From the IMG/VR virus record IMGVR_UViG_3300042386_001406, positions 1 to 64,000 of that record: 64,000 nucleotides of DNA; one strand, written 5' to 3'. This document shows, piece by piece, positions 6,404 to 36,920 of this stretch (the stretch's first letter is position 1; each line of letters starts with the position of its first letter). Source of the DNA: a virus. The translations under genes were made by a program, and so were the position numbers. The notes below the pieces were generated by a model. That model was not told where the DNA came from, did not search any database, and was given only the letters and a program-made list of their open reading frames with translations.

Positions 6404-9400
6404 ATGAAAAAAACAATTCTGTTCTCGGTTTTCAGCTTGCTTGCTTTTGTTGGATTTGGTCAGATTACCACTTCAGCAATTTCAGGTATTGTAATTAACG
6501 AGAAAAAGGAAGTGTTGGTAGGTGCTACAATCCATGCAACCCACCTTCCAACAGGAACGCAGTACACTGCTACTGCAAACAAACAAGGTGTATATGTTTT
6601 ACCTGCTGTGAGAGTAGGTGGACCTTACACAATTCATTCTTCTTATGTAGGATATAAGAAGGGTGAAGTAACAGAAGTTAACACACAGTTAGGTTTAACA
6701 TCTAACGTTGACTTTGTTTTGATTGATGAAGTGAAAGCTCTCAAAGAAGTAGTTATTAGTGGTAATAGTACTTTTTCAAGACAAAAGACAGGTGCCGCTC
6801 AACAATTCGGACGTAGAGAATTAACTTCAATTCCTATTACAGGAGCTAGAACAATTGATGGTATTACCAAGTACAATCCATTTGGTAATGGTACCTCATT
6901 CGGCGCTCAAGACAGCCGTATGAACAACTTCACTATTGATGGTTCTCAGTTCAACAACAACTTTGGATTAGGATCTTCAGCTCAAGCTGGTGGCCGTACA
7001 GGTGCTTCAGCAATCTCACTTGACGCTATTGATCAACTTCAAGTTAACATTGCTCCATTTGACATTCGTCAGTCTGGATTTACAGGTGCTGGTATCAATG
7101 CTGTAACACGCTCTGGTACTAATGACATTGAGGGTAGTGTTTATGGTACTCAACGTAATAACTCATCTCGTTATGTAGGTGATAACGCACGTGGTACTAC
7201 TGTAACAGCACAAAAATTCGATGAAAAAGTATTAGGTTTCCGTTTAGGTGCTCCAATTATCAAAAACAAATTGTTTATCTTTGGTAACTACGAGCAAATT
7301 GATAGAACAGAACCTGGTACCACTTGGATTTCAGCTGGTTCACCTCTTACAGGTAGTCAAGTATCTCGTGTTAGATACTCTGCAATGGATAGTCTTTCTA
7401 AATTCATGAAAGACAAGTTTAATTATACAACTGGTCCATGGGAGGGGTACTCGAATACGAATTCATCTAATAAATTTCTCGTTCGTCTTGATTGGAACAT
7501 CGATGCTAAGAATAAACTTACTGCTCGTTATGTTCACCATAACTCATCAGCTGAGATAAACATTTCTAACTCTCAATCAGCTGGTGCTGGTAACCGTACC
7601 ACTCAGTTTAATGCTATGTCGTTCCAAAACAGTGGATACATTATCCAAGACAACACTCGCTCAGCTGTATTAGAACTTAACTCTAAGTTAACTAATACAC
7701 TTCATAATAACTTGATCGTTTCTTACGATAAGCAAATTGAAGATAGAGCTTATATGAGTAATATGTTCCCAACAATTGATATTCGTGAGGGTTCTGCTAC
7801 TTATACTTCAGTAGGATTTGATCCATTTACACCTGATAACAAGTTAAACTATTGGACATTTAACATTACTAATAACTTGACTAAGTATTTTGGCAAGCAT
7901 ACAGTAGTTGGTGGTGTGAATTTCCAAAGATATCAATCAAACAACTTGTTCTTCCCAGCATCTAATGGTGTTTATATTTTTAATAGTTTGAATGACTTCT
8001 ATACTGCCGCTAATCAATCATTAGCAAATGGTGGTCGTCCTTCAACTTTTGCACCTGCTCGTTTCCAACTTCGCTATTCTGCCTTACCAGGTGGAATTGC
8101 ACCAATGCAAACTTTAGAATCTTATAGAACCGACATTTATCTACAAGATGAATATAACGGTTTTAAAAATCTAAAGCTAACTGCTGGTATTAGAGCAAAT
8201 ATTATTGAAATTGAGAATACTGCTCTAGAAAACCCAGCTATTACAGCAATGACTTTTGCTAATGGTGAAAAATGGAATACAAGTGTAATGCCTAAAACAC
8301 AGGTATTATTTGAACCACGTTTAGGATTTAACTGGAATGTTAAAGGTACAGGTAAAACACAAGTAAGAGGTGGTACTGGTATTTTCACAGGTCGTCCTCC
8401 TCTTGTATTCTTATCTAACCAAATTGGTAATAATGGTGTATTATCAGGATTTATTGATGTATCTGGTGCAGCAGCTGCCGCTTATGGCTTTACTGCTAAT
8501 CCAAATCAGTATTTCATCCCATCAACTCCAACTTTACCATCTACATTTGATTTAGCTTTAACAGATCCAAATTATAAGTTTCCACAAGTATGGAAAAATA
8601 ACTTAGCTGTTGATCAAAAATTACCTTGGTTAGGTTTGATCGCTAGTGTTGAAGTATTGTATAACCAAACAATTAATGCTGTTCATTACTATAACGCTAA
8701 CCTAGATAAGCCAGTTGGTAATTTATTAGGTGTAGATACAAGACCCTTGTATGCAGGAAATGATAATGGTGTTCGTGTAAACGACAACGTATCAATGGCT
8801 GCTGTTTTAACAAACAGAAATGGTGCTTATAATCGTTCTATTACTTATAAATTAGAAAAACCAGTATCTAAAGGTATTTGGGGATATGTAGCATATACAA
8901 ATGCTCAAGCCGAAGACTTTATGAGTGCTGGGTCTATTGCCTCAGGTTCTTGGCAGTCAGCTCAATCGGTATTTGGTAATAATACTCTTAATTTAACAAC
9001 TTCAGATTTCGTAGTTAGAAATCGTATTGTTGGTTTATTAGGATACCGTATTGAAGGTGGTAAGAAATATGGTACTGCTACTACATTAACCTTAGGTTAT
9101 GTAGGATCACAAAACAATCCATTCTCATATATTGTTGCTGGTGATTTGAATGGTGACCGTGTAAGTAATAACGATTTGATATTTGTACCACATAAAGCAT
9201 CTGATATTCGCTTTGCCCCATTAACTGTGGGTACAGGAGCTACAGCTGTAACTTACACTGAAGCTCAACAACAAGCTGCTTTCGATGCATTTATTAATCA
9301 AGATCCATATTTGTCAACTCGTAGAGGACAATATGCTGAAAGAAATGGATTAGCATTACCTTTCTTACATAGATTTGATCTATCAGCCGCTCAAGATTTC

Positions 9401-9682
9401 TTTGTAAAGATTAAAGGTAAGCGTAACAGCTTCCAAATCCGTGCTGATATCTTGAACTTTGGTAATATGTTAAGTAACAAATGGGGTGTATCACAACGTG
9501 CTGGTGCTCCACAATTGTTGAACTTTGTTAGCCGTGACGCTGCAGGTGTTCCAACATATAGATTATCAACTCAACGTGATGCAACAAGTACTTACTTAGC
9601 AAAAGATACATATCAATACAATTCATCAGTATTTGATGTGTGGACAGCTCAGTTAGGTATTCGTTATACTTTCGGTAAGTAA
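6404..9682 (+). CDS. TonB-dependent outer-membrane receptor (Bacteroidota type)
   Basis: A full-length 1092-residue protein. Residues 1-19 are a signal peptide (MKKTILFSVFSLLAFVGFG). About 25-110 form a carboxypeptidase-regulatory-like beta domain (SGIVINEKKEVLVGATIHAT). About 115-235 are the plug (LKEVVISG, then a TIDGSQFNN region). The rest is a 22-strand-type barrel ending LGIRYTFGK. The closest type I recognise is the Oar/SusC-like receptor branch of Bacteroidota, which imports large nutrients with TonB energy. No stop or frameshift is visible, so it should be functional. The first 450 bases use more CTG, CTT and TTG for Leu than neighbouring genes, hinting at host origin. It is isolated by a terminator on each side. 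It may replace or mimic a host receptor, block superinfection or feed the infected cell; the sequence cannot decide. Confidence 0.9.
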   Translation: MKKTILFSVFSLLAFVGFGQITTSAISGIVINEKKEVLVGATIHATHLPTGTQYTATANKQGVYVLPAVRVGGPYTIHSSYVGYKKGEVTEVNTQLGLTSNVDFVLIDEVKALKEVVISGNSTFSRQKTGAAQQFGRRELTSIPITGARTIDGITKYNPFGNGTSFGAQDSRMNNFTIDGSQFNNNFGLGSSAQAGGRTGASAISLDAIDQLQVNIAPFDIRQSGFTGAGINAVTRSGTNDIEGSVYGTQRNNSSRYVGDNARGTTVTAQKFDEKVLGFRLGAPIIKNKLFIFGNYEQIDRTEPGTTWISAGSPLTGSQVSRVRYSAMDSLSKFMKDKFNYTTGPWEGYSNTNSSNKFLVRLDWNIDAKNKLTARYVHHNSSAEINISNSQSAGAGNRTTQFNAMSFQNSGYIIQDNTRSAVLELNSKLTNTLHNNLIVSYDKQIEDRAYMSNMFPTIDIREGSATYTSVGFDPFTPDNKLNYWTFNITNNLTKYFGKHTVVGGVNFQRYQSNNLFFPASNGVYIFNSLNDFYTAANQSLANGGRPSTFAPARFQLRYSALPGGIAPMQTLESYRTDIYLQDEYNGFKNLKLTAGIRANIIEIENTALENPAITAMTFANGEKWNTSVMPKTQVLFEPRLGFNWNVKGTGKTQVRGGTGIFTGRPPLVFLSNQIGNNGVLSGFIDVSGAAAAAYGFTANPNQYFIPSTPTLPSTFDLALTDPNYKFPQVWKNNLAVDQKLPWLGLIASVEVLYNQTINAVHYYNANLDKPVGNLLGVDTRPLYAGNDNGVRVNDNVSMAAVLTNRNGAYNRSITYKLEKPVSKGIWGYVAYTNAQAEDFMSAGSIASGSWQSAQSVFGNNTLNLTTSDFVVRNRIVGLLGYRIEGGKKYGTATTLTLGYVGSQNNPFSYIVAGDLNGDRVSNNDLIFVPHKASDIRFAPLTVGTGATAVTYTEAQQQAAFDAFINQDPYLSTRRGQYAERNGLALPFLHRFDLSAAQDFFVKIKGKRNSFQIRADILNFGNMLSNKWGVSQRAGAPQLLNFVSRDAAGVPTYRLSTQRDATSTYLAKDTYQYNSSVFDVWTAQLGIRYTFGK

Positions 9683-10751: not shown

Positions 10752-11015
10752 ATGAAGCAAAATATCAACGAAATTAAGAAAATGCAGCGTATCGCTGGAT
10801 TAATTACCGAGAGTGAATACCAAGAATCAATAATGAAAGAAAATACAATACTTTCAGATGAGGCATATGATCGTATAGATGGTTTAGTTAACCAAAAAGA
10901 TATGGATATGTTACGTGATGGTGGTAGAAATATAGTACTTGATTTAACAGATGAGGGATTTGAAGACGATGAAATAATTGAGTATATATGCAGATATTTG
11001 AAAAATTTTCTATAA
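10752..11015 (+). CDS. small protein with targeting-like N-terminus
   Basis: An 87-residue acidic protein. The N-terminus (NEIKKMQRIAGLITE-SEYQ) resembles that of the 461-residue protein at 31678 (NEIERLKLIAGLINE) and the C-terminus of the scaffold (IRRMQQLAGIVK), and contains an I-x-E site. The rest (DRIDGLVNQKDMDMLRDGG, then acidic helices) has no recognised domain. I infer a prohead-associated or internal protein. It opens the operon, 6 bases before the kinase gene. Confidence 0.55.
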   Translation: MKQNINEIKKMQRIAGLITESEYQESIMKENTILSDEAYDRIDGLVNQKDMDMLRDGGRNIVLDLTDEGFEDDEIIEYICRYLKNFL

Positions 11016-11021
11016 TAAGTA

Positions 11022-11771
11022 ATGAAGATTAGAATCAAAGAGGCACAACAAATGCCACAGGCGATATTCATGGCCGGCCCAGCTGGGGCTGGCAAATCCT
11101 TTGTTTCTAAATCATTACCACTCTCTAAATTCCAAGTAATAAATGTCGACGACGCTTATGAGGAAATGCTCAAAGCAGCTGGTATTGGAATGAAGATTAA
11201 AGACTTTACTCCTGATGAATTGTCACAAGCCGCTAAATTAATGGCGCAGGCTCAAAAAACAACTAAGGATAAATACGCCAAAGCACTCGAAAATTTAAAC
11301 GACATTATTATTGATGGAACAGGTGCAGCATCTAAGCCTTTACTCAAGAAAAAGGCAGAATTAGAGGCTTTAGGATATGAAACTATGATGGTAATGATAT
11401 ATGTTTCACCTGTAACTTCACTTGAACGTAATGCTAATAGAGAACGTTCATTAATGCCTGGTCAAGTTTTAAATACTTGGGAAAAAGTAAATAGTAACAT
11501 CAAAACATATGAACAAGCATTTGGTGACAATTTTATTTTAATAAACAATGATCCAAAAGATGCTGACATAAGTTTTGATCCTCAAGAAATAAAGCGTAGA
11601 TTTTTTGATACTGCTAAGGCTAAAGGTAAACCAAAAACACCAGAGGAATTAGCTAAGAAAAAAGCTGAAGTAGAAGCAATGAATAAAAACATTGAACAAC
11701 TACTTAAACAAAAACCAAAATTCACTCCTAGAGATCAAGCTATCTCTAAAATAAAGGCATTTATTAAATGA
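11022..11771 (+). CDS. zeta-toxin-like P-loop kinase with targeting-like N-terminus
   Basis: A 249-residue protein. The Walker A motif GPAGAGKS is at residues 19-26, followed by VINVDDAYEEML (the acidic base/substrate segment) and IIIDGTGAAS. That order is typical of the zeta toxin / polynucleotide-kinase-like P-loop group, which phosphorylates a nucleotide or sugar-nucleotide. The N-terminus MKIRIKEAQQ has an I-K-E site just before the fold, like its neighbours. The C-terminal 50 residues are Lys-rich and probably helical. It overlaps the next gene by ATGA. Substrate unknown; there is no adjacent antitoxin-like gene. Confidence 0.7.
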   Translation: MKIRIKEAQQMPQAIFMAGPAGAGKSFVSKSLPLSKFQVINVDDAYEEMLKAAGIGMKIKDFTPDELSQAAKLMAQAQKTTKDKYAKALENLNDIIIDGTGAASKPLLKKKAELEALGYETMMVMIYVSPVTSLERNANRERSLMPGQVLNTWEKVNSNIKTYEQAFGDNFILINNDPKDADISFDPQEIKRRFFDTAKAKGKPKTPEELAKKKAEVEAMNKNIEQLLKQKPKFTPRDQAISKIKAFIK

Positions 11772-13753
11772 TAGATTTAAATACAATATTAAACGAGTTA
11801 ACTGAAGATGATGGACAAACAACTCCACCAGCTATCTGTTACTACCCAGGTGGATTTAAACCACCACATGAAGGACACTATGAGGCTCTTAAAGATTTAG
11901 TGTCACGTCCTTACATTACTAAAGTAATAGTTTTAATTGGACATAAAACACGTGATGGTATAACTAAAGAACAAAGTAAACGTATTTGGGATTTATATTT
12001 AGCCACTACACCAATGGCTAAAGTAAGTGTTAGAATAAGTGAAGATGCCTCTCCAATTAAAGATCTATTTAGTGCCTTTGACTCTGACTTAGAACTAAAA
12101 GCATATGTCGCTGGAGCTAAATCAGAGGTAGAAGAACAAGATTATTTTACCCCATTACAAAAAGCATTTAGTACAAGAGTAATGCCTATATCAATTGATG
12201 AAAAAGTTGTTACTCAAGGTAAACGCTTGTCAGGAACTCAAGTACGTGGTTTAGTAACACAACTTAAAAAAGCAGTATTACAGTTACGTTCAATAGCTGA
12301 TAAATCATCAACTGAGTATTCTAAAGCTAGAAATGCTTATTTAAACACATATGAAGAGTTAAAAGGATGCTTTCCAGAAGCAGTTGTTCAAAAAGGACAA
12401 TATGATGATATTCTTAAAATATTAGGGATACCAGTTTTAAATGTAGACCAACTTCAAGAAAATCAAGAAGATGGTAATTTAATTATACGTGTACCTTATG
12501 CTTTAACAACTAAGATTGAGAATTTTTTAAATACAATGTTAATACCATTTGAATACTCTCAACAAGCATTTGGTGGTAAAGAAAGACGTATGTTAATTCC
12601 TAATCTAAGTGATAATAACGAACAAAAAGAAAAAGTACTTAATTATTTAAGTAAACATAACATACCTGTTAATATTGAAGAAGATTTATTTACTATTAAT
12701 TGGTGGAAACAAAGTTTAGAAGAAATTCAACTTGATGTCCCTACACCAGATGAAAAAGATGTTGATCCTGAACAACTAAAAAAAGGAATTGAAGTAGAAA
12801 AAGAACACACCAACGATGAAAAAACAGCTAAGAAAATAGCGTTAGCTCATTTAGGTGAAGATCCAAAATATTATTCTAAGTTAAAAAAAGCAGGTTTAGA
12901 AGAAACATTAACTGAACCACAAGATAAGACAGACAATATTATAGCTGATTTTATTGATTTTGCCGCTAATGCTCTTGACTTACAAAAAGTACCTAAAATT
13001 ACTTTTAGTGATGATGAGAATTTAGCTAAACAAATGCACGCGTTAGGTGCTTATCAACCTAAAACTGATGAATTATTAGTTGTTAAAGGATCAAGACTAA
13101 CAGCAGATATTTTACGCACATTAGCTCATGAGTTAGTACATCGTAAACAAGCTGAAATGGGTCCATTAGATAAAGAAGATGGTAAAACAGGTTCAGAAGT
13201 AGAAAATGAAGCTAATGCCGCCGCTGGTGTATTACTAAGACAATTTGGTAAATACAGACCAGAAATATTTGAAGAAGCAGATGCGATGAAAGGTGATTAT
13301 AAGATATACTGTGATATGGATGGTGTGTTAGTTGATTTTGATAAAGGGTATGAAGAATTAACAGGTAAAAAAGCTAGTTTTGACACACCAAAAGAAGAAT
13401 TTTGGGAACCAATTTCAAAAGCAGGTGCAGCGTTTTGGATTAAATTACAATGGATGCCTGATGGAAAACAATTATGGAATTATATTAAACCATACAATCC
13501 AGATTTACTATCAGCTCCATCACGTGAAGAATCATCTAAAATAGGTAAATTTACTTGGGTGAAAAGAAACTTACCTGGTACTAAACTTATCTTACGTTCA
13601 GCTGATCGTAAACAAGAATTTGCAACACCAAACTCTATCTTAATTGATGATAGAGCAGATAATATACAACGTTGGAAAGATGCGGGTGGTATAGGTATTC
13701 ATCACACATCAGCTGCTGATACAATACAACAATTGAAAGATTTAGGGCTATGA
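11768..13753 (+). CDS. four-domain fusion: nucleotidyltransferase, DUF5661-like, HExxH, HAD phosphatase
   Basis: A 661-residue protein. It begins MIDLNTILNE-LTEDD (targeting-like). Then come: a cytidylyl/adenylyltransferase-like domain with HEGH (34-37) and SGTQVR (155-160); a DUF5661-like stretch around 336-382 (GIEVEKEHTNDEKTAKKIAL); a zinc-protease-like HELVH (454-458); and a HAD-type 5'-nucleotidase domain starting at DMDGV (516-520) with LIDDRADNIQRWKDAGG near the end. Each catalytic motif looks intact. It could transfer a nucleotide, remove a phosphate and cleave a peptide, or be a polyprotein cut at its own I/L-x-E sites (for example after IFEE before the HAD domain). Coupled by ATGA overlaps on both sides. 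Confidence 0.75.
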   Translation: MIDLNTILNELTEDDGQTTPPAICYYPGGFKPPHEGHYEALKDLVSRPYITKVIVLIGHKTRDGITKEQSKRIWDLYLATTPMAKVSVRISEDASPIKDLFSAFDSDLELKAYVAGAKSEVEEQDYFTPLQKAFSTRVMPISIDEKVVTQGKRLSGTQVRGLVTQLKKAVLQLRSIADKSSTEYSKARNAYLNTYEELKGCFPEAVVQKGQYDDILKILGIPVLNVDQLQENQEDGNLIIRVPYALTTKIENFLNTMLIPFEYSQQAFGGKERRMLIPNLSDNNEQKEKVLNYLSKHNIPVNIEEDLFTINWWKQSLEEIQLDVPTPDEKDVDPEQLKKGIEVEKEHTNDEKTAKKIALAHLGEDPKYYSKLKKAGLEETLTEPQDKTDNIIADFIDFAANALDLQKVPKITFSDDENLAKQMHALGAYQPKTDELLVVKGSRLTADILRTLAHELVHRKQAEMGPLDKEDGKTGSEVENEANAAAGVLLRQFGKYRPEIFEEADAMKGDYKIYCDMDGVLVDFDKGYEELTGKKASFDTPKEEFWEPISKAGAAFWIKLQWMPDGKQLWNYIKPYNPDLLSAPSREESSKIGKFTWVKRNLPGTKLILRSADRKQEFATPNSILIDDRADNIQRWKDAGGIGIHHTSAADTIQQLKDLGL

Positions 13754-14289
13754 TTAAATTAATAGACATATTAAAAGAAGAAATTAATTTAGAAAAATAT
13801 GTTGAAGATTGGTTAAGTAAAGGAGGAATACATGATGACTCTAATATTAATAGAGCATTTACTATTAAACTAAAACAATTAGGTTACGAAAATTATGGAA
13901 CTATATATCGAGTTTTATTTGTCAAAAAAGATAATAAAATATCCAATTTAAAATCTTATATTTGGGACAAATATAATGGAAAATATATATCTTTTTCTGA
14001 AACTTTAGAGGGAGCAAATAAATTTATGGACCTATTAATAAATGATGGTCTGCTTAAAAAAGGAGAAATACTTGTTGTTATAAAACAAAAATCTAATTAT
14101 TATAATTTACATAAATGGGTAGAAGATAAAATAAAAGAATATGGAGGTCCTTGGCAATTTGCTGATAAAAAAGGTGTTTGGGTTGGAGGGTTGTATAGAG
14201 AAACTCAAAAAACAAAAGAAGTTTTATCAACATTAGATAATAATTTTGAAATAGTAAGACAATATTCTAAAAAAGGAAAAATGTTATGA
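13750..14289 (+). CDS. possible ADP-ribosyltransferase-like protein with targeting-like N-terminus
   Basis: A 179-residue protein starting MIKLIDILKE-EINLEKYVE. The segments TIYRV (Arg54) and YISFSETLEGANKF (Ser81-Phe-Ser83) resemble the Arg and Ser-x-Ser elements of R-S-E ADP-ribosyltransferases such as T4 Alt and ModA. I cannot place the final catalytic Glu with confidence, so this is weak. T4 Alt is itself packaged in the capsid and injected, which fits the N-terminal peptide. Base composition is more AT-rich than its neighbours. ATGA overlaps link it to both adjacent genes. Confidence 0.4.
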   Translation: MIKLIDILKEEINLEKYVEDWLSKGGIHDDSNINRAFTIKLKQLGYENYGTIYRVLFVKKDNKISNLKSYIWDKYNGKYISFSETLEGANKFMDLLINDGLLKKGEILVVIKQKSNYYNLHKWVEDKIKEYGGPWQFADKKGVWVGGLYRETQKTKEVLSTLDNNFEIVRQYSKKGKML

Positions 14290-14867
14290 ATGAATCAAAT
14301 TTAAAAAAAGAGTTTTCAAAACGTGATGTACAAAGAATGAGAAATATAATCAGTGGTAATGCTAGTTCAGCCACTGGTATTCAAGTAGGTTATAGTAAAC
14401 AATCTCAAGACTACCAAGAAGGAGATGTGTGGGAAGAAAATGATAAACAATGGACCATTAAAAATGGCATCAAACAAACTGTTACTAAACATGATAAATT
14501 AAGACAGTTAGTTACTATGCCTTTAGCTTGTCCTGAATGTGATAAACCATTTAAAAATACTCCTGTAAATAAGAAAATGTGGGTTATTCATAAGATGTGT
14601 CGTGACTGTGTTATTGATATGGAGGCTAAAATTAGATTAGAAGGTAAGTGGGATGAGTATGAGCATAATATGATGAATGCTAATAAAAATGCTGATGTAG
14701 ATGAGTTTGAAAAAGCATTTAATGAATTTGTAAAAACAAGTACTGATAAAAGTTCATTTATAACTGAGGCGGGTGATATAGAAACATGGAGTGGGGGTAA
14801 AATTAATGAAGAAGAAATAAAACAAGTCAAAGAATATATAAAAAAACTGCGCGAAACAGAAATATAA
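14286..14867 (+). CDS. conserved phage protein with zinc ribbon
   Basis: A 193-residue protein. The N-terminal part (FSKRDVQRMRNIISGN, then EGDVWEENDKQWTIKNGIKQ) is of a type I have seen in many T4-like phages without a function. Residues about 82-107 hold two Cys pairs (CPEC and CRDC) that form a probable zinc ribbon. The rest is acidic and helical, with an FITE-AGD site near residue 160. Unlike most of its neighbours, it lacks the short targeting-like N-terminus. The ATATTTAT box at its end starts the next gene. Confidence 0.6.
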   Translation: MNESNLKKEFSKRDVQRMRNIISGNASSATGIQVGYSKQSQDYQEGDVWEENDKQWTIKNGIKQTVTKHDKLRQLVTMPLACPECDKPFKNTPVNKKMWVIHKMCRDCVIDMEAKIRLEGKWDEYEHNMMNANKNADVDEFEKAFNEFVKTSTDKSSFITEAGDIETWSGGKINEEEIKQVKEYIKKLRETEI

Positions 14868-14868
14868 A

Positions 14869-14878
14869 TATATTTATT
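14869..14878 (+). promoter_or_regulatory. ATATTTAT box upstream of a membrane coiled-coil gene
   Basis: Reads TATATTTATT directly after the previous stop; only 7 nt before the ATG at 14886. Confidence 0.4.
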
Positions 14879-14885
14879 TTCAGCA

Positions 14886-15197
14886 ATGGAAGCAATGGAT
14901 AACATTTATACGGTCATTATAACAGCAATTACAGTTCTAGGTAGTGCTACAGCATTTCGATTTTATGAAAAGAAATCTATGCGTAAAGAACGTGATGAAG
15001 AATTTATTCGCCACGATTGTAAAGATCGTATTGCTAAATTAGAAGCATTGCTTGTTGAATCTGCTCGTGAAAAAGATGAGTTACGTAAAATGGTATTACA
15101 GCTTACAAAAGAAGTAGCTGCGTTAAGTACTAAAGTTGAATTTTTTGAAAAAGGCGCGCCTATAGTATCTGTCAAATCTCGAAAAGCTACTAAATAA
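14886..15197 (+). CDS. single-pass membrane coiled-coil protein
   Basis: A 103-residue protein. A hydrophobic segment near the N-terminus (YTVIITAITVLGSATAFRFY) predicts one inner-membrane helix with few residues on the far side, followed by a charged coiled coil (residues about 30-90) that should face the cytoplasm or periplasm depending on orientation. Topologically it could be a holin-like or spanin-like lysis protein or a membrane tether. An alternative ATG at 14895 would remove three residues. It has its own ATATTTAT box. Confidence 0.5.
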   Translation: MEAMDNIYTVIITAITVLGSATAFRFYEKKSMRKERDEEFIRHDCKDRIAKLEALLVESAREKDELRKMVLQLTKEVAALSTKVEFFEKGAPIVSVKSRKATK

Positions 15198-15221
15198 TCA
15201 TTACCTATTATTGCCCATTAA

Positions 15222-15231
15222 TATATTTATA
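15222..15231 (+). promoter_or_regulatory. ATATTTAT box upstream of the Dps-like gene
   Basis: Reads TATATTTATA in the 54-base gap; 20 nt before the ATG at 15252. Confidence 0.5.
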
Positions 15232-15251
15232 TAGGATAAAAACTATATAAG

Positions 15252-15827
15252 ATGCCATATACTCGTAAAGGTAATTGTGTTTACAAAGAAACTGGTAAGA
15301 AAATGGGCTGCTCTAAAGACACTAAGGCAGCTGAAAAATATATGCGTGCTTTATATGCCGCTGAAGCAGGTAATATCAAGGAAGGATATGATTTAGATAC
15401 TATCAGCCCTGACCAACCTGAACTTGCTATAACTGTTGAATTGCCAAACCCTATACAGGTTATGGCTTCTTTTGTCTCTACATTAATGTCATCTCGTACA
15501 CAAGCTCACATATTCCACTGGCGTTGTAAAGGCGTAGGTGCTGGATGGATGCATACAGCATTAGGTGAGTATTATGATGGTATTGTAGATATATTAGATA
15601 AATTAGTTGAGTCAACTCAAGGCCGCTATGGTTTATTAGAAGGATATAAATGTGATGGACAATTTATGGAAGATGTAACTAAAGCAATTCCATATTTTGA
15701 AGCATTATGTTTGTATGTTGAAAAAAATCGTGGTTCATTACCTCAAGATTCATATATTCAAAATCAAATAGATGAAATAGTTGAGTTAATTGAAACAACT
15801 AAATATAAATTAGTAAACTTACAGTAA
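15252..15827 (+). CDS. Dps/ferritin-like protein (DUF5856-like)
   Basis: A 191-residue protein in two parts. Residues 1-40 are a small Cys-containing element (RKGNCVYKETGKKMGCSKDT) seen, from memory, as a separate module in marine phage proteins. Residues about 65-190 resemble the DUF5856 group, related to Dps/ferritin four-helix bundles: TQAHIFHWRCKG, then MHTALGEYYDGIVDILDKLV with the His, Glu and Asp expected near a di-metal centre. Dps proteins bind DNA and oxidise iron. In a phage it could protect DNA or be packaged. Its TAA overlaps the next ATG (TAATG). Confidence 0.6.
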   Translation: MPYTRKGNCVYKETGKKMGCSKDTKAAEKYMRALYAAEAGNIKEGYDLDTISPDQPELAITVELPNPIQVMASFVSTLMSSRTQAHIFHWRCKGVGAGWMHTALGEYYDGIVDILDKLVESTQGRYGLLEGYKCDGQFMEDVTKAIPYFEALCLYVEKNRGSLPQDSYIQNQIDEIVELIETTKYKLVNLQ

Positions 15828-16474
15828 TGCGTATTCGTATAATTAAAGAAGCTATAGCAACTGATATAACTGATATAGTAAAAAATACTATTGGACTTAA
15901 AGCCACTGTTAAACGCTTTAAGAATAATATATTAGTAGCTTCACCAGGTGGATTCTTCTCACCTAGCCGTTTACAAAATATGGCTGATGAATTGAATGAT
16001 AGAATACCTGAACCCTGGTTAGAAAGTCCTGTAAGTGTAGGTACAGGTGGTGCTACTGAAGGTTTACTTATTATAAGATTGAATGATGAGGGTATGAAAC
16101 ATACCAATTTATTTGAAGCAGAAGAGGATTTTACACCAATTGAAGATCCAAAGGAACCAAAACCAGCAGCTAAACAATTTCAAATATTAGCTTCAATGAT
16201 CACTAACACTAAAGTTAATGATCAAACTAATATATTATCAGCAATGAGAGCATTACCAGGTGTTACTATTGTTAACTCACAAGCAGCAATTCCAGGTTCA
16301 AATTCAGAAGGACAACTCCGCTATAAAACAAATGTTGACATTAAAATTGATACTTCAGCACTCAGTGGTGATATAAAAACTGCTATTAAGAAAATAATTG
16401 AAGATATTAAGAAAATTGAAGGTGTAGTTGAGTTTAAAGTATTACCAAAAGCAAAAGAAACAACTCCATACTAA
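15827..16474 (+). CDS. unknown protein with targeting-like N-terminus
   Basis: A 215-residue protein that starts MRIRIIKE-AIATDITDIV, again an I-x-E site within the first ten residues. Two alpha/beta domains seem present: about 10-90 (a small domain with SPGGFFSPSRLQNMADELND) and about 105-210 (QILASMITNTKVNDQTNIL, later VDIKIDTSALSGDIKTAIKK), the latter resembling a ferredoxin-like fold. No catalytic motif is recognised. Flanked by TAATG junctions, so translation is coupled. An internal virion protein is inferred only from the N-terminus and context. Confidence 0.55.
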   Translation: MRIRIIKEAIATDITDIVKNTIGLKATVKRFKNNILVASPGGFFSPSRLQNMADELNDRIPEPWLESPVSVGTGGATEGLLIIRLNDEGMKHTNLFEAEEDFTPIEDPKEPKPAAKQFQILASMITNTKVNDQTNILSAMRALPGVTIVNSQAAIPGSNSEGQLRYKTNVDIKIDTSALSGDIKTAIKKIIEDIKKIEGVVEFKVLPKAKETTPY

Positions 16475-17127
16475 TGAATAAGATACAATTAAAGGAGCAT
16501 ATTGAAAAAATCATTAACTATGTAGGCCAAGAATACAATCATGGTCCTAAGTTAGTTATGAATGAATCTAAAGAACCAGTCTTTATTTCTGAAGGCTTAT
16601 ATTACCATATTGAAAATAACTTACCACTAAACGAATCAATATATCGTCCTCAATCAGCAATGTTTTTAAAATTATTTGTTGAAGCAAGAAACTTATATGA
16701 TTCTAAGCGTTTAGTATTATGTGAATCAGATCAATATTATTTTGACAATACAGATATAGGTACATTTGGTGAGTATAATGGTATTAAAGTGCCACTAGAC
16801 TTACCTCTGACCGAGGAATTTCTAACAGAAGCATTAGAAGAAGAAAAAAAACAACCAGCATTAGGTAAACCTAAGCGTGGTGGTTCTAAAAAATTCTATG
16901 TGTATGTTAAAGATCCTAAAACCAAACGTATTAAAAAAGTATCATTTGGTATGGCAGGTGGTGGCTTAAGAGCCAAATTAAACAACCCAAAAGCTAGACA
17001 AGCGTTTTCTAAACGCCACAATTGTCCTCAAAAGAAAGACAAAACTAAAGCTTCATATTGGAGTTGTCGTTTACCTCGCTATGCTAAACTATTAGGATTT
17101 AAAACAACATTTAGTGGATTTTGGTAA
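16474..17127 (+). CDS. basic conserved protein, possible internal virion protein
   Basis: A 217-residue protein with MNKIQLKE-HIEK at the start. Its C-terminal 75 residues are basic and distinctive: KKFYVYVKDPKTKRIKKVSF, then AFSKRHNCPQKKDKTKASYW and a final Cys. That tail is, from memory, widespread in uncharacterised proteins of large marine phages and looks like a small Cys-containing nucleic-acid-binding domain. The middle contains several L-x-E sites (FLTE-ALEE) at the junction with the basic domain, where a prohead protease could cut. Coupled to both neighbours by TAATG overlaps. Confidence 0.55.
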   Translation: MNKIQLKEHIEKIINYVGQEYNHGPKLVMNESKEPVFISEGLYYHIENNLPLNESIYRPQSAMFLKLFVEARNLYDSKRLVLCESDQYYFDNTDIGTFGEYNGIKVPLDLPLTEEFLTEALEEEKKQPALGKPKRGGSKKFYVYVKDPKTKRIKKVSFGMAGGGLRAKLNNPKARQAFSKRHNCPQKKDKTKASYWSCRLPRYAKLLGFKTTFSGFW

Positions 17128-17744
17128 TGATTAGTCTAATTGACATATTACATGAAATGTATCCACCATATAAAGCAAATATGGTATCAAAAGTTAGATA
17201 TAAAGCATCTGATGTTTGGACTAATGACCAAGAATTAGCTGTAAAAAGAGGATACTTGGAAAGTGATGAACCTGAAAAAGGCACAGGTAAAAAACCTAAA
17301 GGATCTAGTCGTCGTTTATACACAGATGAAGATCCAAAAGATACAGTTAAAATTAAATTCAAAACCGCTCAAGATGTTAAAGATACATTATCAAAAAAGA
17401 CATTTAAAGCAAAACCACATGCTCGTAAGTCACAAATTATTAATGTAATCCATCAGCGTGTCAGAGCAGCTTATAATAGAGCTAAAGATCCAGATGTTAA
17501 ATCTAGATTAAAACGTGCTTTGGATTATATTGAAAAGCGTAAAGAAGCATCTAAAGAAAAAACTAAAAGTTTAAATAAAGAAACATCAGATCCACAATCA
17601 GGTAAAGCAGCACCATATGGTTCAGGATATGCTCCTATACAACAGAATGAAGACATATTAAATGAAAAATGCTGGCCTGGATATACTAAAAAAGGAATGA
17701 AAACAATGTTTGGAAAAAAATACCCTAATTGTGTAAAAAAATGA
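17127..17744 (+). CDS. basic protein with targeting-like N-terminus and Cys-containing tail
   Basis: A 205-residue protein. I use the ATG at 17127 (TAATG with the previous gene), giving MISLIDILHE-MYPPYK, which matches the N-termini of its neighbours; an upstream TTG at 17121 would spoil this. The middle is strongly basic (RKSQIINVIHQRVRAAYNRA). The tail (EKCWPGYTKKGMKTMFGKKY, then Asn-Cys) is a motif I associate with uncharacterised marine-phage proteins. It follows an ILNE site, so the tail could be released. DNA-binding packaged protein is the best guess. Confidence 0.55.
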   Translation: MISLIDILHEMYPPYKANMVSKVRYKASDVWTNDQELAVKRGYLESDEPEKGTGKKPKGSSRRLYTDEDPKDTVKIKFKTAQDVKDTLSKKTFKAKPHARKSQIINVIHQRVRAAYNRAKDPDVKSRLKRALDYIEKRKEASKEKTKSLNKETSDPQSGKAAPYGSGYAPIQQNEDILNEKCWPGYTKKGMKTMFGKKYPNCVKK

Positions 17745-18058
17745 TAAAACTAACTCAACTACTAACTGAAGTAAAAGAAACATTTGAAAGTTTTGCCACT
17801 ATTCGTGGTAAAGGTGCTGCTAAAATTGCCGCCACTGCTGAAGAAAAAGGTGGATTATCTCTATTAACATGGCATCATTTTAAAGTAAAAGCTCCGTACT
17901 ATAAAAAAGCAACTGAGGGTAAATTTGATAAAGAAGTTGCTAAAAAAGAATTTGAACAAACATATAAAAAGATATCATTAAACATGACTCAAACTGAATT
18001 TCAACGTGAAGTTGGTCGTTTAGAGGTATTAGGTGAACTGTTAATAGAAAATAAATAA
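17741..18058 (+). CDS. small basic protein with targeting-like N-terminus
   Basis: A 105-residue protein starting MIKLTQLLTE-VKETFESFA at an ATGA overlap; the in-frame TTG at 17729 lies inside the previous gene and is not needed. The body (IRGKGAAKIAATAEEKGGLS, then LLTWHHFKVKAPYY) is helical and rich in Lys and Ala. It is conserved in type with other large-phage proteins but has no known function. The LLTE site at residues 7-10 fits the (I/L)-x-E pattern of the cluster. Confidence 0.55.
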   Translation: MIKLTQLLTEVKETFESFATIRGKGAAKIAATAEEKGGLSLLTWHHFKVKAPYYKKATEGKFDKEVAKKEFEQTYKKISLNMTQTEFQREVGRLEVLGELLIENK

Positions 18059-18060
18059 TA

Positions 18061-18324
18061 ATGAGTCAACCTTATGTAGACTTAGTTGTGACAGATGAAT
18101 ATGTGATTAGGGAATTTGATAAAAACATTGACCCTATAGAGCTAATGTGGCATCGAGATGATGAAAACAGGATGGTTGAAGCTATAGAACCAACAGATTG
18201 GCTAGTACAACTAGACAACCAGTTACCAATGTCTATGACCCAACCAATATTTATACCACGTCATATGTGGCATAGAACTATAAAAGGCACAGGTAAATTA
18301 AAGATAAAAATATATAAATCATGA
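18061..18324 (+). CDS. cupin-like small conserved phage protein
   Basis: An 87-residue protein. The pattern MWHRDDENRMVEAI, then WLVQLDNQLP, then FIPRHMWHRTIKGTGKLKIK, with paired His residues on predicted strands, resembles a minimal cupin barrel of a kind I have seen in T4-like phages. Metal binding is plausible; the substrate is unknown. It lacks the targeting-like N-terminus of its neighbours. It overlaps the next gene by ATGA. An ATATTTAT match at 18246-18253 lies inside this gene, 67 nt upstream of the next start, and may be chance. Confidence 0.5.
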   Translation: MSQPYVDLVVTDEYVIREFDKNIDPIELMWHRDDENRMVEAIEPTDWLVQLDNQLPMSMTQPIFIPRHMWHRTIKGTGKLKIKIYKS

Positions 18325-18761
18325 AAAAATCTGAATTAAAACAATTAATCAGAGAAGCAATCGAAGAAGTAAAACCTAAAGTTGAAGAAGATGTAATCAA
18401 CGAAGGATTTGCTCCTGAAACTGATGAAGTTGGCTCATTTTGGGTGGTTGAAAAACCATCTACTAGCGCTACTTTAGATGACATTTGCTTTGAATGCGAA
18501 AATGTAATGTACTTTGCTCGTCAAATTGCTGGTGGTTTAAAACCAGAAGATATCAAAGGTGTATTCACTAAAGAAGCTAAAGCTAAAAAGTTAGCTGAAA
18601 AATTACTTAAAGCTCGTGACACTAAAAAAGAAGAAGTAAAACAAGCAGCTGAAGCTTATAAAAAAATGAAAGAAGAAACTTTAGCAAAAGTACAAGAGTA
18701 CATGAAAAATAAGAAAGCTACTAAACAAGTAGTTGACGAGTTAAAAGACGAAGTTAAGTAA
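18321..18761 (+). CDS. helical protein with targeting-like N-terminus
   Basis: A 146-residue protein starting MKKSELKQLIRE-AIEEVKP. This is the form of the N-terminal peptide that I recall most often in uncharacterised proteins of large marine phages. After it come a small domain with two Cys (DDICFECENVMYFA) and a long charged helix (KAKKLAEKLLKARDTKKEEV) to the end. No enzyme motif. Coupled to its neighbours by ATGA and TAATG overlaps. I infer packaging into the prohead from the N-terminus only. Confidence 0.5.
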   Translation: MKKSELKQLIREAIEEVKPKVEEDVINEGFAPETDEVGSFWVVEKPSTSATLDDICFECENVMYFARQIAGGLKPEDIKGVFTKEAKAKKLAEKLLKARDTKKEEVKQAAEAYKKMKEETLAKVQEYMKNKKATKQVVDELKDEVK

Positions 18762-19135
18762 TGAAGTTAACAGACATATTACTTGAAACTCTGCTTGAAA
18801 AGAAAAAAGACAGATGTCATCGTATCGCTGATAGGCGTTATGATAAACCATCTGCTTATAAGTCAGGTGCTATAGTGAGATGTCGCCAAGGTAAAATTTG
18901 GAAAGATCTTAAAGAAGATGAATCATTACGTAAATGGTTTGGTCGCAGAGGCGCAGCTGGTAAAGAAGGTGGATGGGTTGATTGTAACACATGTCGCAAA
19001 GTAGATGGTAAAACCAAATGTAAACCTTGTGGTAGAAAAGAAGGTGAAAAACGAGCTAAATACCCATCATGTCGACCAACACCTGCTGGATGTAAGAAAA
19101 AAGGAAAAGGTAAAACTTGGGGAAAAACAAAATAA
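18761..19135 (+). CDS. DUF5872-like basic Cys-rich protein
   Basis: A 124-residue protein starting MKLTDILLE-TLLEKKK, then two basic Cys modules: one with DRCHRIADRRYDKPSAYKSG and VRCRQGKIW, and a DUF5872-like one (RKWFGRRGAAGKEGGWVDCN, then CRKVDGKTKCKPCGRKEGEK and CRPTPAGCKKK). DUF5872 is known from T4-like phages but has no assigned function; the Cys pairs suggest zinc binding and the charge suggests nucleic-acid contact. It would be very basic after removal of the first nine residues. The next gene begins two bases after its stop. Confidence 0.6.
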   Translation: MKLTDILLETLLEKKKDRCHRIADRRYDKPSAYKSGAIVRCRQGKIWKDLKEDESLRKWFGRRGAAGKEGGWVDCNTCRKVDGKTKCKPCGRKEGEKRAKYPSCRPTPAGCKKKGKGKTWGKTK

Positions 19136-19137
19136 AT

Positions 19138-21079: not shown

Positions 21080-21095
21080 TATTTATTAACACATA
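21078..21095 (+). promoter_or_regulatory. ATATTTAT box, first copy of an 18-nt repeat
   Basis: AATATTTATTAACACATA, overlapping the TAA of the 498-residue gene. The identical 18 bases recur at 23836-23853, so the two copies bracket the accessory genes 21211-23835. A terminator at 21144 lies between this box and the next gene. Confidence 0.5.
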
Positions 21096-21143
21096 CAGAA
21101 CAGATTCATTGCCTGTTTGCTTATAAAAGATAAAAATTGGAGT

Positions 21144-21176
21144 AGTGGCCCACCAAAAAGGTGGGCTACTTTTTTG
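21144..21176 (+). terminator. intrinsic terminator
   Basis: An 11-bp stem (AGTGGCCCACC / GGTGGGCTACT, one G-T pair) with an AAAAA loop, followed by TTTTTT. It lies 65 bases after the end of the large internal-protein operon. An in-frame GTG at 21145 is inside this hairpin, so it cannot be the start of the next gene. Confidence 0.85.
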
Positions 21177-21210
21177 CCTGCGCAAAATAAAGATGTTATA
21201 TTTAAACCTA

Positions 21211-23027: not shown

Positions 23028-23065
23028 CCTGGATTAATAACTTATATTTAATTAAATTAAATTAT

Positions 23066-23299: not shown

Positions 23300-23313
23300 C
23301 AAATAAAAATAAT

Positions 23314-23835: not shown

Positions 23836-23853
23836 AATATTTATTAACACATA
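23836..23853 (+). promoter_or_regulatory. ATATTTAT box, second copy of the 18-nt repeat
   Basis: AATATTTATTAACACATA immediately after the kinase TAA, identical to 21078-21095. The 10-nt box ends 18 nt before the ATG at 23864. Confidence 0.5.
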
Positions 23854-31677: not shown

Positions 31678-33063
31678 ATGAAAAAACCAATCAACGAAAT
31701 AGAAAGACTTAAACTTATCGCTGGTTTAATTAACGAAATTAATTATAATGACTCAGTATACGGCGTTAAAAGAACAACATTAACTGAGGGTAAAAAGAAA
31801 AAAGAAGTTAAAGAATTATCTATAGACGTTGCTAACCCATACGAATACCGTATGGGTCTTCAATATGAACTAGAGCAAATGGATGACTATAGTAATGAAT
31901 CTTTAGAAAAAGCTAAATCAATTGTATTGAAGAACTTAGCTAAAGATGTTAACTTCTATACTACTTTACTTAACCAAGATCAATCACCTTATAAGTTTGA
32001 AGCTCCTGAAACAGACAAACCAGGTATGCAAGCTAAAGCTGATGGTTATTTAAAGAAAGAATTAAAGAAAGATGCTAAAGCTAATGTACAAGATACATTA
32101 GGTAAAAAAGAAGCAGGTTCTAAAAAACCTAAAGGTGTTAAAGTAATGCCTGATAAAGGTGTAACTGGCTCTGAAAAAACCATTAAAGAGAATCTTATTA
32201 ATGAGGTAATATTAAAAGTATATCATTATGATCCATCATCAGGTGATTTAGAAGATGTGGATGTTGAATATTTTAGTTCTGAAGAAGAAGCTAAAAAAGC
32301 TGCTTTAGCTCATCATTGGCAAGTAGCTTTTGATAATGGAGATACAGATCTTAGTAAAGAAGATTTTATATCTCAAACTAACTTTGATGACTTTGAACCA
32401 TATAACAACTACGATTATAAAATAGTATCTGATAAAGGTAATATTAAAGAAGGATTAGAAGAAGCTTCAAAAGATCCACATGACAAAGCTAAGGTAATGA
32501 AAGTGGATGGTAAATTCGAAGTTTATACAACTCAAGATGGTGAAATAAAAACATTCGATAAAGAAGCTGATGCTAAAGCATTTGCTGATAAATATAACAG
32601 TGAGAATGTTAAAGAAGGTTCATTCATGGGTGGTGTTGATTTAGGTGCTTCATTTGATAAAATGAAAGGACAAATGAATGCTGAAGATGAATTTAATTCA
32701 TTAATGTCTAAGTATGACTGGTATTATGAAATGAGCGATGATCCACGTGCTTATGATCGTGGAACAGCTATGAATAGTAAATTAAAGATGTTAGGTAAGC
32801 AAATTGGTGTTGATAAAGCTATTGAATTATTCAACTCTAAAGCTCCATCTGATAGAAAAATAACATCTTCTTTCTTTATGGAAGGTGAAGATAAGCATTC
32901 TAAAATTAAAGAAGCATTAAAAGCTGCTTTAAAGAAAGCTTTAAAAGAAGAAGATCCAGCTATGGCTAGAATAGAAAAAGACGAAGAAGCCGCTGAAAAA
33001 GCTTTAGCACAAATATTAACAAAGAAAGCAGCTGTATTAGCTAAACCAGGAACCCAAGGATAA
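31678..33063 (+). CDS. prohead core/internal protein candidate
   Basis: A 461-residue Lys/Glu/Ala-rich protein. The N-terminus (NEIERLKLIAGLINE-INYND) matches the pattern of the 87-residue protein at 10752. Internal features: a domain around 175-260 (VYHYDPSSGDLEDVDVEYFS), a short segment FEVYTTQDGEIKTFDKEADA, and a basic-acidic helix near the end (KEALKAALKKALKEED). Several (I/L)-x-E sites (LINE, GLEE) separate these parts, so it might be processed. It overlaps the protease gene by TAATG. Confidence 0.5.
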   Translation: MKKPINEIERLKLIAGLINEINYNDSVYGVKRTTLTEGKKKKEVKELSIDVANPYEYRMGLQYELEQMDDYSNESLEKAKSIVLKNLAKDVNFYTTLLNQDQSPYKFEAPETDKPGMQAKADGYLKKELKKDAKANVQDTLGKKEAGSKKPKGVKVMPDKGVTGSEKTIKENLINEVILKVYHYDPSSGDLEDVDVEYFSSEEEAKKAALAHHWQVAFDNGDTDLSKEDFISQTNFDDFEPYNNYDYKIVSDKGNIKEGLEEASKDPHDKAKVMKVDGKFEVYTTQDGEIKTFDKEADAKAFADKYNSENVKEGSFMGGVDLGASFDKMKGQMNAEDEFNSLMSKYDWYYEMSDDPRAYDRGTAMNSKLKMLGKQIGVDKAIELFNSKAPSDRKITSSFFMEGEDKHSKIKEALKAALKKALKEEDPAMARIEKDEEAAEKALAQILTKKAAVLAKPGTQG

Positions 33064-33692
33064 TGAACAAACAAGTATTAATAGAATATTATTCATTTAC
33101 ACCTTCGCCTCGTGCTTTGCATGAGGCAAAGTTGTCTCCATCTAAAAACTTAATTGTTGAAGGTGTAGTACAACGCGCAGATGCTAAAAACCAAAACGGA
33201 CGTGTTTATCCTAAAGACACATTGAAACGTGAAGTTGAAAAATATATCCTTGGTCCAATAGCTGAAAACAGAGCATTAGGTGAACTAGACCACCCAGACT
33301 CATCAATCATTAACTTAAAGAATGTATGTCATAACATTAAATCTTTATGGTGGGATGGTGATGATTTAATGGGTAAAATTGAAGTATTACCTACACCAAG
33401 TGGTAATATATTAAAAGAATTATTTTTAAATAATATAACTGTTGGTATTTCTTCTCGTGGTATGGGTTCAGTAAAACCACTAGGTGAAGGAACAATGGAG
33501 GTACAAGATGACTTTGAATTATTATGTTGGGATTTTGTTTCAACACCATCAACTCAAGGCGCATTTATGAGACCAACAGGACTAAGTGAAAGTTATGTAC
33601 CTGGTACTCGTTCATTTGGTAAGTATACTAAAGTAAATAATCTAATCTCAGAAATTATTTGTAGTCAAACAGGTGTTTGCTGCATTAGATAA
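33063..33692 (+). CDS. prohead maturation protease, T4 gp21-like (peptidase S80)
   Basis: A 209-residue serine protease. The triad is visible as His77 (GELDHPDS), Ser in GISSRGMGS (130/131) and Asp157 (CWDFVSTPSTQG). The herpesvirus-protease-like S80 family cuts scaffold, capsid and internal proteins after (I/L)-x-E during prohead maturation. That cleavage rule makes the shared N-termini in this window meaningful. The first 30 residues may be a self-cleaved pro-segment. A terminator follows and separates it from the scaffold gene. Confidence 0.9.
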   Translation: MNKQVLIEYYSFTPSPRALHEAKLSPSKNLIVEGVVQRADAKNQNGRVYPKDTLKREVEKYILGPIAENRALGELDHPDSSIINLKNVCHNIKSLWWDGDDLMGKIEVLPTPSGNILKELFLNNITVGISSRGMGSVKPLGEGTMEVQDDFELLCWDFVSTPSTQGAFMRPTGLSESYVPGTRSFGKYTKVNNLISEIICSQTGVCCIR

Positions 33693-35252: not shown

Positions 35253-36920
35253 ATGAGTCAAATTCAATCTTTAATCGAATCTGCTAACCCATGGCAGTCA
35301 CAGCAAGGCGAGGCTTCTCGTTTAGCTAACAAGTGGGAAAAATCAGGTTTGTTAGAAGGTCTTACTGACTACAACAAATCTAATATGGCTGTAATGCTTG
35401 AGAACCAAGCTAAGCAATTAGTTGTTGAACAGTCAAACACTGGAACTGGTGGTACTTTTACTCCAGGAACTGGTGAGCAGTGGGCTGGCGTAGCTTTACC
35501 ACTCGTTCGTAAGGTATTCGGACAAATCGCTTCTAAAGAATTCGTTTCTGTACAACCAATGAGCTTACCAGCTGGTTTAGTGTTCTTCTTAGATTTCCAA
35601 TACGGAACTAATAAAGATCCATTCACTTCTGGTAATTCACTTTATGGTACAGCTTACACTCAAGGTGATTCTGGCTTTGGTAACTTAGCTCAGGGTGGTC
35701 TTTATGGTGCTGGCCGTTGGGGTTATTCAGTTAACCAATTCTCATCTTCATTAACTGGTGCTACATCTGCAGCTGCTGCTACATTTGATGCTATCAACTG
35801 GGATTCTGATTATTCTCAGTCTATTGTTAATAGCAAGATCATTCAAATTGCTTTCACAACTGGTTCAGCTGGTTTCCCAACTAACTTTGATGTGAATGGT
35901 GTTCGTGATCTTTATTTGATCGATGGTACTCCTGCTTCTCCAGGAACTGTTATCACTTCAGCTACATTATTACCTCAGTTTACTACAATTGCTGGTGGTA
36001 CAGTTAAGTTATTCGTAACTGCTTCTGGTGTTGCTGCTGTTAACGCTATCACAGGTGGTATGACTTTATTCTTCAACAAGAAGACTGCTGATAACGCTCG
36101 TGGTGATTTTGAAAATGCTGCTGGTGCTGGTTATCCAAACGCAGAAAGCAATACAGAAATCGTAATCCCAGAGATCAATGTACAATTACGTTCTGAGACT
36201 ATTGCTGCTAAAACTCGTAAGTTAAAAGCACAATGGACTCCAGAATTCGCTCAAGACTTAAACGCTTACCAAAACTTGGATGCTGAAGCTGAATTAACTT
36301 CTATGTTATCAGAGTACATCTCTTTAGAGATCGACTTAGAAATCATGGATATGTTAATCCAGAACGCTCCAATCGTTGAACAATGGTCAGCTAAAGTGGG
36401 CGGTACTGTAACTGCAGGTTCATCTAACATTGCTTACAACACATCAGGTGTTTATTACACTCAGATGACTTGGTTCCAAACTTTAGGTATCAAATTACAA
36501 AAAGTTTCTAACCAAATTCACCAACGTACTTTACGTGGTGGTGCTAATTTCATGGTAGTTTCTCCAACTGTAGCTACTATCCTTGAGTCAATTCCAGGAT
36601 TTGCAGCTGATACAGACGGTGCAGCTGACAACATGAAGTATGCATTCGGCGTACAGAAAATTGGTCAATTAAACAGCCGTTACAAAGTTTACAAGAATCC
36701 TTACATGATCGAGAATACTATCTTAATGGGATTCCGTGGTAACCAATTCTTAGAGACTGGTGCTGTTTATGCTCCATACATTCCGTTAATCATGACTCCA
36801 TTAGTGTACGATCCAAATACCTTCACTCCAAGAAAAGGTATCATGACTCGTTACGCGAAGAAAATGGTACGTCCTGAATTCTACGGTAAGGTATTTATTG
36901 CTGACTTACAAGTTATCTAA
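35253..36920 (+). CDS. major capsid protein, T4 gp23-like
   Basis: A 555-residue HK97-fold capsid protein. The N-terminus (WEKSGLLEGLTDYNKSNMAV, then MLENQAKQL) parallels the T4 gp23 pro-region. The likely protease site is after VVE59, in the place where gp23 is cut after Glu65. The EFVSVQPMSLPAGLVFFLDF segment is the conserved gp23 core. The mature shell protein would start at about residue 60. A terminator lies 26 bases after the stop, so the scaffold-capsid pair forms a unit. Codon choice is relatively rich in C-ending codons, as expected for a highly expressed gene. Confidence 0.93.
   Translation: MSQIQSLIESANPWQSQQGEASRLANKWEKSGLLEGLTDYNKSNMAVMLENQAKQLVVEQSNTGTGGTFTPGTGEQWAGVALPLVRKVFGQIASKEFVSVQPMSLPAGLVFFLDFQYGTNKDPFTSGNSLYGTAYTQGDSGFGNLAQGGLYGAGRWGYSVNQFSSSLTGATSAAAATFDAINWDSDYSQSIVNSKIIQIAFTTGSAGFPTNFDVNGVRDLYLIDGTPASPGTVITSATLLPQFTTIAGGTVKLFVTASGVAAVNAITGGMTLFFNKKTADNARGDFENAAGAGYPNAESNTEIVIPEINVQLRSETIAAKTRKLKAQWTPEFAQDLNAYQNLDAEAELTSMLSEYISLEIDLEIMDMLIQNAPIVEQWSAKVGGTVTAGSSNIAYNTSGVYYTQMTWFQTLGIKLQKVSNQIHQRTLRGGANFMVVSPTVATILESIPGFAADTDGAADNMKYAFGVQKIGQLNSRYKVYKNPYMIENTILMGFRGNQFLETGAVYAPYIPLIMTPLVYDPNTFTPRKGIMTRYAKKMVRPEFYGKVFIADLQVI

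Follow-up and report, generated by a model that had tools for sequence, protein, structure and literature searches.

A phage multi-enzyme chain with a capsid-type leader and candidate prohead-protease sites between its modules

Introduction

Why would a T4-like phage place several enzyme-like modules in a single chain, behind an N-terminus that resembles a capsid-targeting signal? Little is known of the early infection biology of uncultured T4-like phages of Bacteroidota. The open reading frame that raises the question lies on the forward strand at 11768-13753 of our window (the whole stretch of DNA analysed), which is 64 kb out of a 76.5-kb IMG/VR virus record and encodes a T4-type terminase, portal, head maturation protease, major capsid protein and DNA primase. 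The frame runs from an ATG start through 661 codons without interruption, in agreement with the single 661-residue reading frame of a first-pass annotation. The same annotation suggested that the product might be a polyprotein, separated by the prohead protease into several injected enzymes. Given a capsid tag in front and candidate protease sites between the parts, we conclude that one chain is probably packed, split within the head and its enzymes injected together in this T4-like virus group; no cutting has been observed.

Results

Modules and catalytic residues

The feature map is given in Table 1. All four domains of the first-pass annotation are present, with the HEGH/SGTQVR, DUF5661, HELVH and DMDGV sites intact as claimed, and only the count has to be revised, to include a fifth, small alpha/beta module at residues ~235-303. 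In the AlphaFold model of the 661-residue protein, confidence is high for the nucleotidylyltransferase and HAD folds, whose absence would have spoken against the annotation, and fair for the zincin; low-confidence stretches fall at residues 7-17, 232-234, 265-268, 304-325, 365-387 and 503-508.

Table 1. Features of the multi-enzyme locus and of the head genes relevant to it, in window coordinates.
Feature	Coordinates	Strand	Remarks
Multi-enzyme ORF P0001, predicted capsid-targeted polyprotein	11768..13753	+	661 aa; relatives
Leader MIDLNTILNE, 10 residues, capsid-targeting-like, ending L-N-E	11768..11797	+	T4 IPIII position pattern
Second leader-side motif LTE, residues 11-13	11798..11806	+	
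Nucleotidylyltransferase module, residues 20-228	11825..12451	+	GGFKPPHEGH, SGTQVR; 1f9a profile; Foldseek
Candidate prohead-protease site LQE, residues 229-231	12452..12460	+	Nucleotidylyltransferase / small alpha/beta module joint
Small alpha/beta module, residues ~235-303	12470..12676	+	Structure model, comparison with relatives
Candidate site LEE, residues 317-319, codons TTAGAAGAA	12716..12724	+	DUF5661 insertion, left border
DUF5661 module, residues 328-374	12749..12889	+	PF18905 E=6.8e-13
Candidate sites LEE (377-379, codons TTAGAAGAA) and LTE (381-383)	12896..12916	+	DUF5661 insertion, right border
Zincin metallopeptidase-like module, residues 388-500	12929..13267	+	HELVH, later Glu 479
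Candidate site IFE, residues 500-502, ahead of HAD module	13265..13273	+	
HAD 5'(3')-deoxyribonucleotidase-like module, residues 508-661	13289..13750	+	PHROG 2643; 4mum; motifs
Upstream P-loop kinase/zeta-like gene, short leader MKIRIKE	11022..11771	+	
Downstream gene, own leader MIKLIDILKE	13750..14289	+	
T4-type head maturation (prohead) protease, proposed processing enzyme	33063..33692	+	PHROG 207 E=6.8e-54
Major capsid protein	35253..36920	+	PHROG 138 E=1.6e-71

Searching the PDB with the single sequence gave no matches, and profiles were required. The nucleotidylyltransferase, only weakly matched by its single sequence, was related by profile to archaeal NMN adenylyltransferase 1f9a (E=1.9e-5) and by Foldseek to NaMN adenylyltransferases and PPAT (NMNAT/PPAT fold), and PF01467 exceeds its cut-off in relatives L167, L125 and Melnitz. 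With HEGH at residues 34-37 and SGTQVR at 155-160, the module has the (H/T)xGH and SGTxxR/ISxTxxR motifs and the Rossmann-like fold of the cytidylyltransferase-like (NMNAT/PPAT) superfamily, followed by a helical C-terminal extension that reaches residue ~228. GGFKPPxxGH and SGTxxR are nearly invariant across these nucleotidylyltransferases, SGTxxR being lost in L060. The DUF5661 match, at residues 330-374, scores 49.2 bits against a Pfam cut-off of 27.

In the zincin module HELVH occupies residues 454-458, and H454, E455, H458, Q461 and E479 are invariant in 25 sequences, which supplies both the HExxH and the third zinc ligand Glu expected of a zincin. It matched PF20573 weakly and IrrE-like phage models, and its sequence profile found no significant relative among solved structures. 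The HAD module, with DMDGV from residue 516, matches PHROG 2643 (5'-3' deoxyribonucleotidase) over residues 507-660 (E=3.7e-28) and, by profile, the mitochondrial 5'(3')-deoxyribonucleotidase 4mum (E=7e-4). Its DxDG nucleophile (D516, D518), downstream Lys and DD, which together with the family match define this enzyme type, are invariant or nearly so. Catalytic motifs are thus retained in nearly all relatives, as the annotation required, and judged by them the modules look like working enzymes, in the absence of enzyme assays.

Relatives keep the order and exchange whole modules

A scan of viral contigs yielded 131 distinct proteins in which a nucleotidylyltransferase or zincin module is present, or in which a HAD lies within a longer chain. 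The order nucleotidylyltransferase-zincin-HAD is kept in ~54 distinct viral proteins, with other modules inserted or missing, so the search for this order that the annotation had recommended led us to reject the idea that the combination is unique to the window's phage. Writing NT for nucleotidylyltransferase and MP for zincin, the architectures comprise 37 NT-MP-HAD, 48 NT-MP, 11 complete NT-small-MP-HAD and three complete NT-small-DUF5661-MP-HAD chains including the window's own. The nearest relatives differ by whole modules, the majority lacking exactly DUF5661; L011 lacks DUF5661 and part of the small module and L012 and L013 lack both, the small module being absent or shortened in all three. 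Longer relatives carry a Pol-beta nucleotidyltransferase and DUF6934 (Pfam), as well as stretches that resemble, by eye and from the sequence only, zinc ribbons and ADP-ribosyltransferases. Bacterial genomes are nearly devoid of the family (3 weak loci), and a host origin was set aside for this reason.

A capsid-type leader in a head-protein context

MIDLNTILNE has the layout of the T4 IPIII capsid-targeting sequence, with hydrophobic residues at 4, 7 and 8 and Glu at 10. The ten-residue leader of IPIII is reported to be sufficient, with positions 4 and 7 mattering for targeting and positions 8 and 10 for processing; T4 gp21 cleaves after L/I-X-E (PMC9026906). The chain accordingly shares two marks of a T4-type processed head protein, a 10-residue leader with L/I-x-E at position 10 and a matching type of protease in the same phage; the targeting-like N-terminus proposed earlier fits, targeting itself being an inference.

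Across the fetched loci, the pattern M..h..h[IL].E stands at the start of 299 of 2453 ORFs, against 4.6 in shuffles, and (I/L)xE is most often placed at residue 10 (253 cases, versus 50 at residue 8, 65 at residue 9 and 51 at residue 11). Within the window an early (I/L)xE is present in 20/31 genes between 10.7 and 35.3 kb and in 6/33 elsewhere (P=3e-4), a count that is supportive only, because the boundary of the region was picked after the sequences had been seen. The major capsid protein has LIE at residue 9 of its propeptide and (V/L/I)xE with an invariant Glu near residue 63. Across the lineage the propeptide retains motifs, and most relatives share the Glu at about this position, close to the 65-residue propeptide of T4 gp23. 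The leader is missing in some chains, namely L065-L068, the nucleotidylyltransferase-zincin proteins of L177-L188 and a 907-aa protein of phage immuto.

Many small genes at 10752-24832 and 29185-35223 also have leaders ending in L/I-x-E, among them MIKLIDILKE, MISLIDILHE, MIKLTQLLTE and MADNFDLRKFITE, which suggests a putative large set of injected head proteins.

Protease motifs concentrate at module junctions

Eleven (I/L)-x-E motifs occur in the chain. Nine lie in linkers that are modelled with low confidence, or at most one residue from them (P=3e-5 with all 55 Glu residues taken into account), so that their placement between domains, pointed out in the first-pass annotation, exceeds chance; two fall within the nucleotidylyltransferase fold. 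The 1021-aa relative L051 gave a model too weak for this test (mean pLDDT 63). Among non-redundant linkers of the family (<45% identity), L/I-x-E is found ahead of the zincin in 18 of 21 cases, behind the zincin in 16 of 22 and ahead of the HAD in 14 of 16, and none of these counts was reached in 2000 shuffles (0/2000 each). The mirror motif Ex(I/L) is much less enriched at linkers than (I/L)xE, and module cores are poor in the latter, the HAD core most of all (2.1 per 1000 residues versus 10.0 for the mirror). The motif is short, and the shuffles leave some effect of shared ancestry despite redundancy filtering. Before the HAD it is missing in L150, L169 and L181, and FTE or FSE is found in L005 and L008.

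A second test used fusion boundaries, defined as internal segments that match the N-terminus of a separate ORF. L/I-x-E is present at 39 of 52 non-redundant boundaries, where 14.1 would be expected at random positions; other leader-bearing fusions have only a small excess (48/90 versus 36.6), and fusions without an early motif in either partner have none (8/65 versus 8.4). These filtered sets and controls were used because a test over all 637 boundaries, weakened by the inclusion of tail fibres and other unrelated proteins, was dropped. The leaderless L177-L188 proteins failed as a negative control, since motifs persist at their nucleotidylyltransferase/zincin joint.

Split genes, fused genes and a repeat at the DUF5661 joint

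A HAD encoded by a gene of its own usually follows directly after the nucleotidylyltransferase-zincin gene and starts with a leader, e.g. MIKLTDILNE or MKKTPTLLDLYE. Among distinct stand-alone HADs the leader is present in 39 of 41 from loci with the partner gene and in 0 of 10 from loci without it; many of these proteins are related (four clusters at 45%), so the effective number is below 41. Other modules likewise have split and fused counterparts that correspond at the proposed site, as in SLNE|GKQVGLLY (L015) against MIKLLDILNE|SKQVGPLY (L099), and DKITE|GRKKKKDPKKGTGKKPEGS (L015) against MIKLVDLLKE|SLNE|ADPKVGTGKKPKGS (L057). A relative of the kinase-like gene at 11022-11771 is fused to a HAD in L177, L178, L185, L187 and L188, with LAE|A or LAE|G at the joint in L177 and others.

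DUF5661 in the window is flanked by two copies of the 9-base TTAGAAGAA, which encodes LEE, and relatives without DUF5661 have a single TTAGAAGAA in the matching context. The module is inferred to have been gained or lost between the copies, the pattern expected from exchange at a site-encoding repeat.

Further modules of this kind were seen nearby. The leader-bearing gene at 17121-17744 has a body (GTGKKPKGSSRRLYTDEDP...) that recurs as a module inside the chains of L015 and L181 and, in L057, as a separate 119-aa gene. The C-terminal part of 16474-17127 resembles a separate gene of Pelagibacter phage HTVC008M as well as the module that ends a 650-aa nucleotidylyltransferase fusion of Methylophilales phage Melnitz, a likeness by which modular cargo may reach Kyanoviridae.

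Other genes of the window

A 1092-aa outer-membrane beta-barrel protein with a signal-like N-terminus is encoded within a phage operon at 6404-9682 (+). It has a carboxypeptidase-regulatory domain (PF25183, E=4.5e-47) and is TonB-receptor/Oar-like; copies are 85% identical in phage locus L138 and 28% in L039, with almost no counterparts in the cultured-phage collection. This receptor-like protein is possibly used in superinfection exclusion. The 448-aa protein encoded at 21681-23027 resembles NAD(P)/FAD-dependent oxidoreductases (Pyr_redox_2, E=3.6e-7) and has no evident leader, and long TPTPTP repeats occur within several probable structural genes (2440-3606, 39345-40112 and 57950-58873).

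Discussion

We consider it likely that the chain is a capsid-targeted polyprotein, cut by the prohead protease into enzymes that are packaged and injected, each of these steps, from targeting to injection, being inferred. The proposal builds on modules, motifs and motif positions, a conserved order and a correspondence of split and fused genes that are all directly observed. The N-terminal ten residues would work as a T4-like capsid-targeting sequence, carrying the chain into the core of the prohead during assembly, where the T4-type prohead protease would cleave after L/I-x-E at the leader and the linkers. Five products are predicted (nucleotidylyltransferase, small alpha/beta protein, DUF5661 protein, zincin and deoxyribonucleotidase); they would be packaged and then injected along with the DNA. 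Related phages would reshuffle modules at these sites, and some modules stay separate genes with their own leader. The polyprotein idea of the first-pass annotation has gained strong comparative support, from the leader, the junction statistics with their negative control, the split and fused genes and the insertion at a repeat; proteomics and biochemistry are lacking.

The chain could instead lose its leader alone and be injected as one multi-enzyme protein, in the manner of the phage N4 virion RNA polymerase or T4 Alt, the junction motifs being incidental to flexible linkers. N4 virion RNA polymerase is packaged unprocessed (PMC5512222), and the motif is missing at some junctions. We nevertheless judge this unlikely, since the motif is in excess at junctions and not in leaderless fusions, and split homologues bear a leader at the equivalent place. 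Another protease is also conceivable: the internal zincin (HELVH), intact in nearly all long family members, might do the cutting, whether ahead of injection or afterwards. Such a role was proposed for the MPTase domains in polyvalent proteins, with autoproteolysis suggested for P1 DdrB (PMC5512222). Against self-cutting, which we hold to be quite improbable, L/I-x-E also stands at the end of leaders in small proteins that contain no zincin, joins kinase to HAD in L177-L188 and is the known gp21 motif; zincin action in trans remains possible.

Least of all do we credit an ordinary cytoplasmic, multifunctional enzyme of nucleotide metabolism, unpackaged and uncut, with motifs arising by chance in Glu-rich linkers. 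A HAD and a nucleotidylyltransferase make metabolic sense together, and leaderless stand-alone HADs exist, but such an enzyme would not account for a leader pattern some 300 strong where shuffles give ~5, for HAD leaders that depend on the neighbourhood, or for the lack of comparable enrichment of the mirror motif. Returning to the polyprotein, we lean towards regarding these chains as true cargo polyproteins, imported under one leader and released in the prohead by the capsid protease, with the site-encoding repeats serving as exchange joints at which effector modules move from chain to chain and from fused to separate genes or back. Their purpose can only be guessed at: probably an early hold over nucleotide or NAD metabolism of the host and over its defences, perhaps with an NMNAT-resembling enzyme restoring NAD (its substrate inferred without an assay) and a deoxyribonucleotidase, likewise of inferred activity, altering nucleotide pools.

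If this is correct, dsDNA phages have multi-enzyme polyproteins matured by the capsid protease, which we have not found described for them. Such chains would explain how several enzymes are loaded in fixed proportion under one address tag, and would account for the wide variation of module content among them. The leader and the L/I-x-E joints may then serve as a sequence signature for injected proteins of uncultured T4-like Bacteroidota phages.

Our literature search found no paper on phage polyproteins cleaved by a prohead protease and none on DUF5661, and those parts of the T4 internal-protein and polyvalent-protein literature that were available describe no chain whose enzyme domains are separated by prohead-protease sites. 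In phiKZ and SPN3US, S80 proteases cut head and ejection proteins after x-x-Glu, often at multiple sites (PMC10052503, PMC5694885); the multiple cuts remove propeptides, the motif is S/A-x-E or A-x-E, and the accessible parts of these papers describe no multi-enzyme chain. Flavobacterium phage immuto, which like the window has primase and exonuclease genes upstream, encodes in genes 182 and 183 a 907-aa Pol-beta-like/nucleotidylyltransferase/zincin chain followed by a leader-bearing HAD; it differs in that the start of the long chain has no recognisable leader and its HAD is encoded on its own.

The polyvalent proteins found in phages and conjugative elements (Iyer et al. 2017, PMC5512222) are likewise multi-domain, with a zincin and other catalytic domains. 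The window's chain fits their description, since it unites a number of catalytic domains in a single phage protein and has the zincin that is common among them, and its relatives extend the likeness by adding a Pfam-supported Pol-beta nucleotidyltransferase and the ADP-ribosyltransferase and zinc-ribbon look-alikes. For polyvalent proteins, zincin autoproteolysis or a C-terminal assemblin-like peptidase was proposed (PMC5512222), and no T4-type leader or inter-domain prohead-protease site is described in the part of that paper available to us. The gp21-processed internal head proteins of T4 (IPI-III and Alt) share the 10-residue leader with its hydrophobic residues and Glu 10 in L/I-x-E, and the likeness extends to a T4-type protease within the window's own genome. 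The T4 proteins are described as losing the N-terminal propeptide only, whereas in the window's chain a single leader precedes several enzyme modules, and a candidate site lies at each joint between them. By analogy, then, the chain would be imported and processed like the T4 internal proteins and is composed like the polyvalent proteins, the two nearest known kinds.
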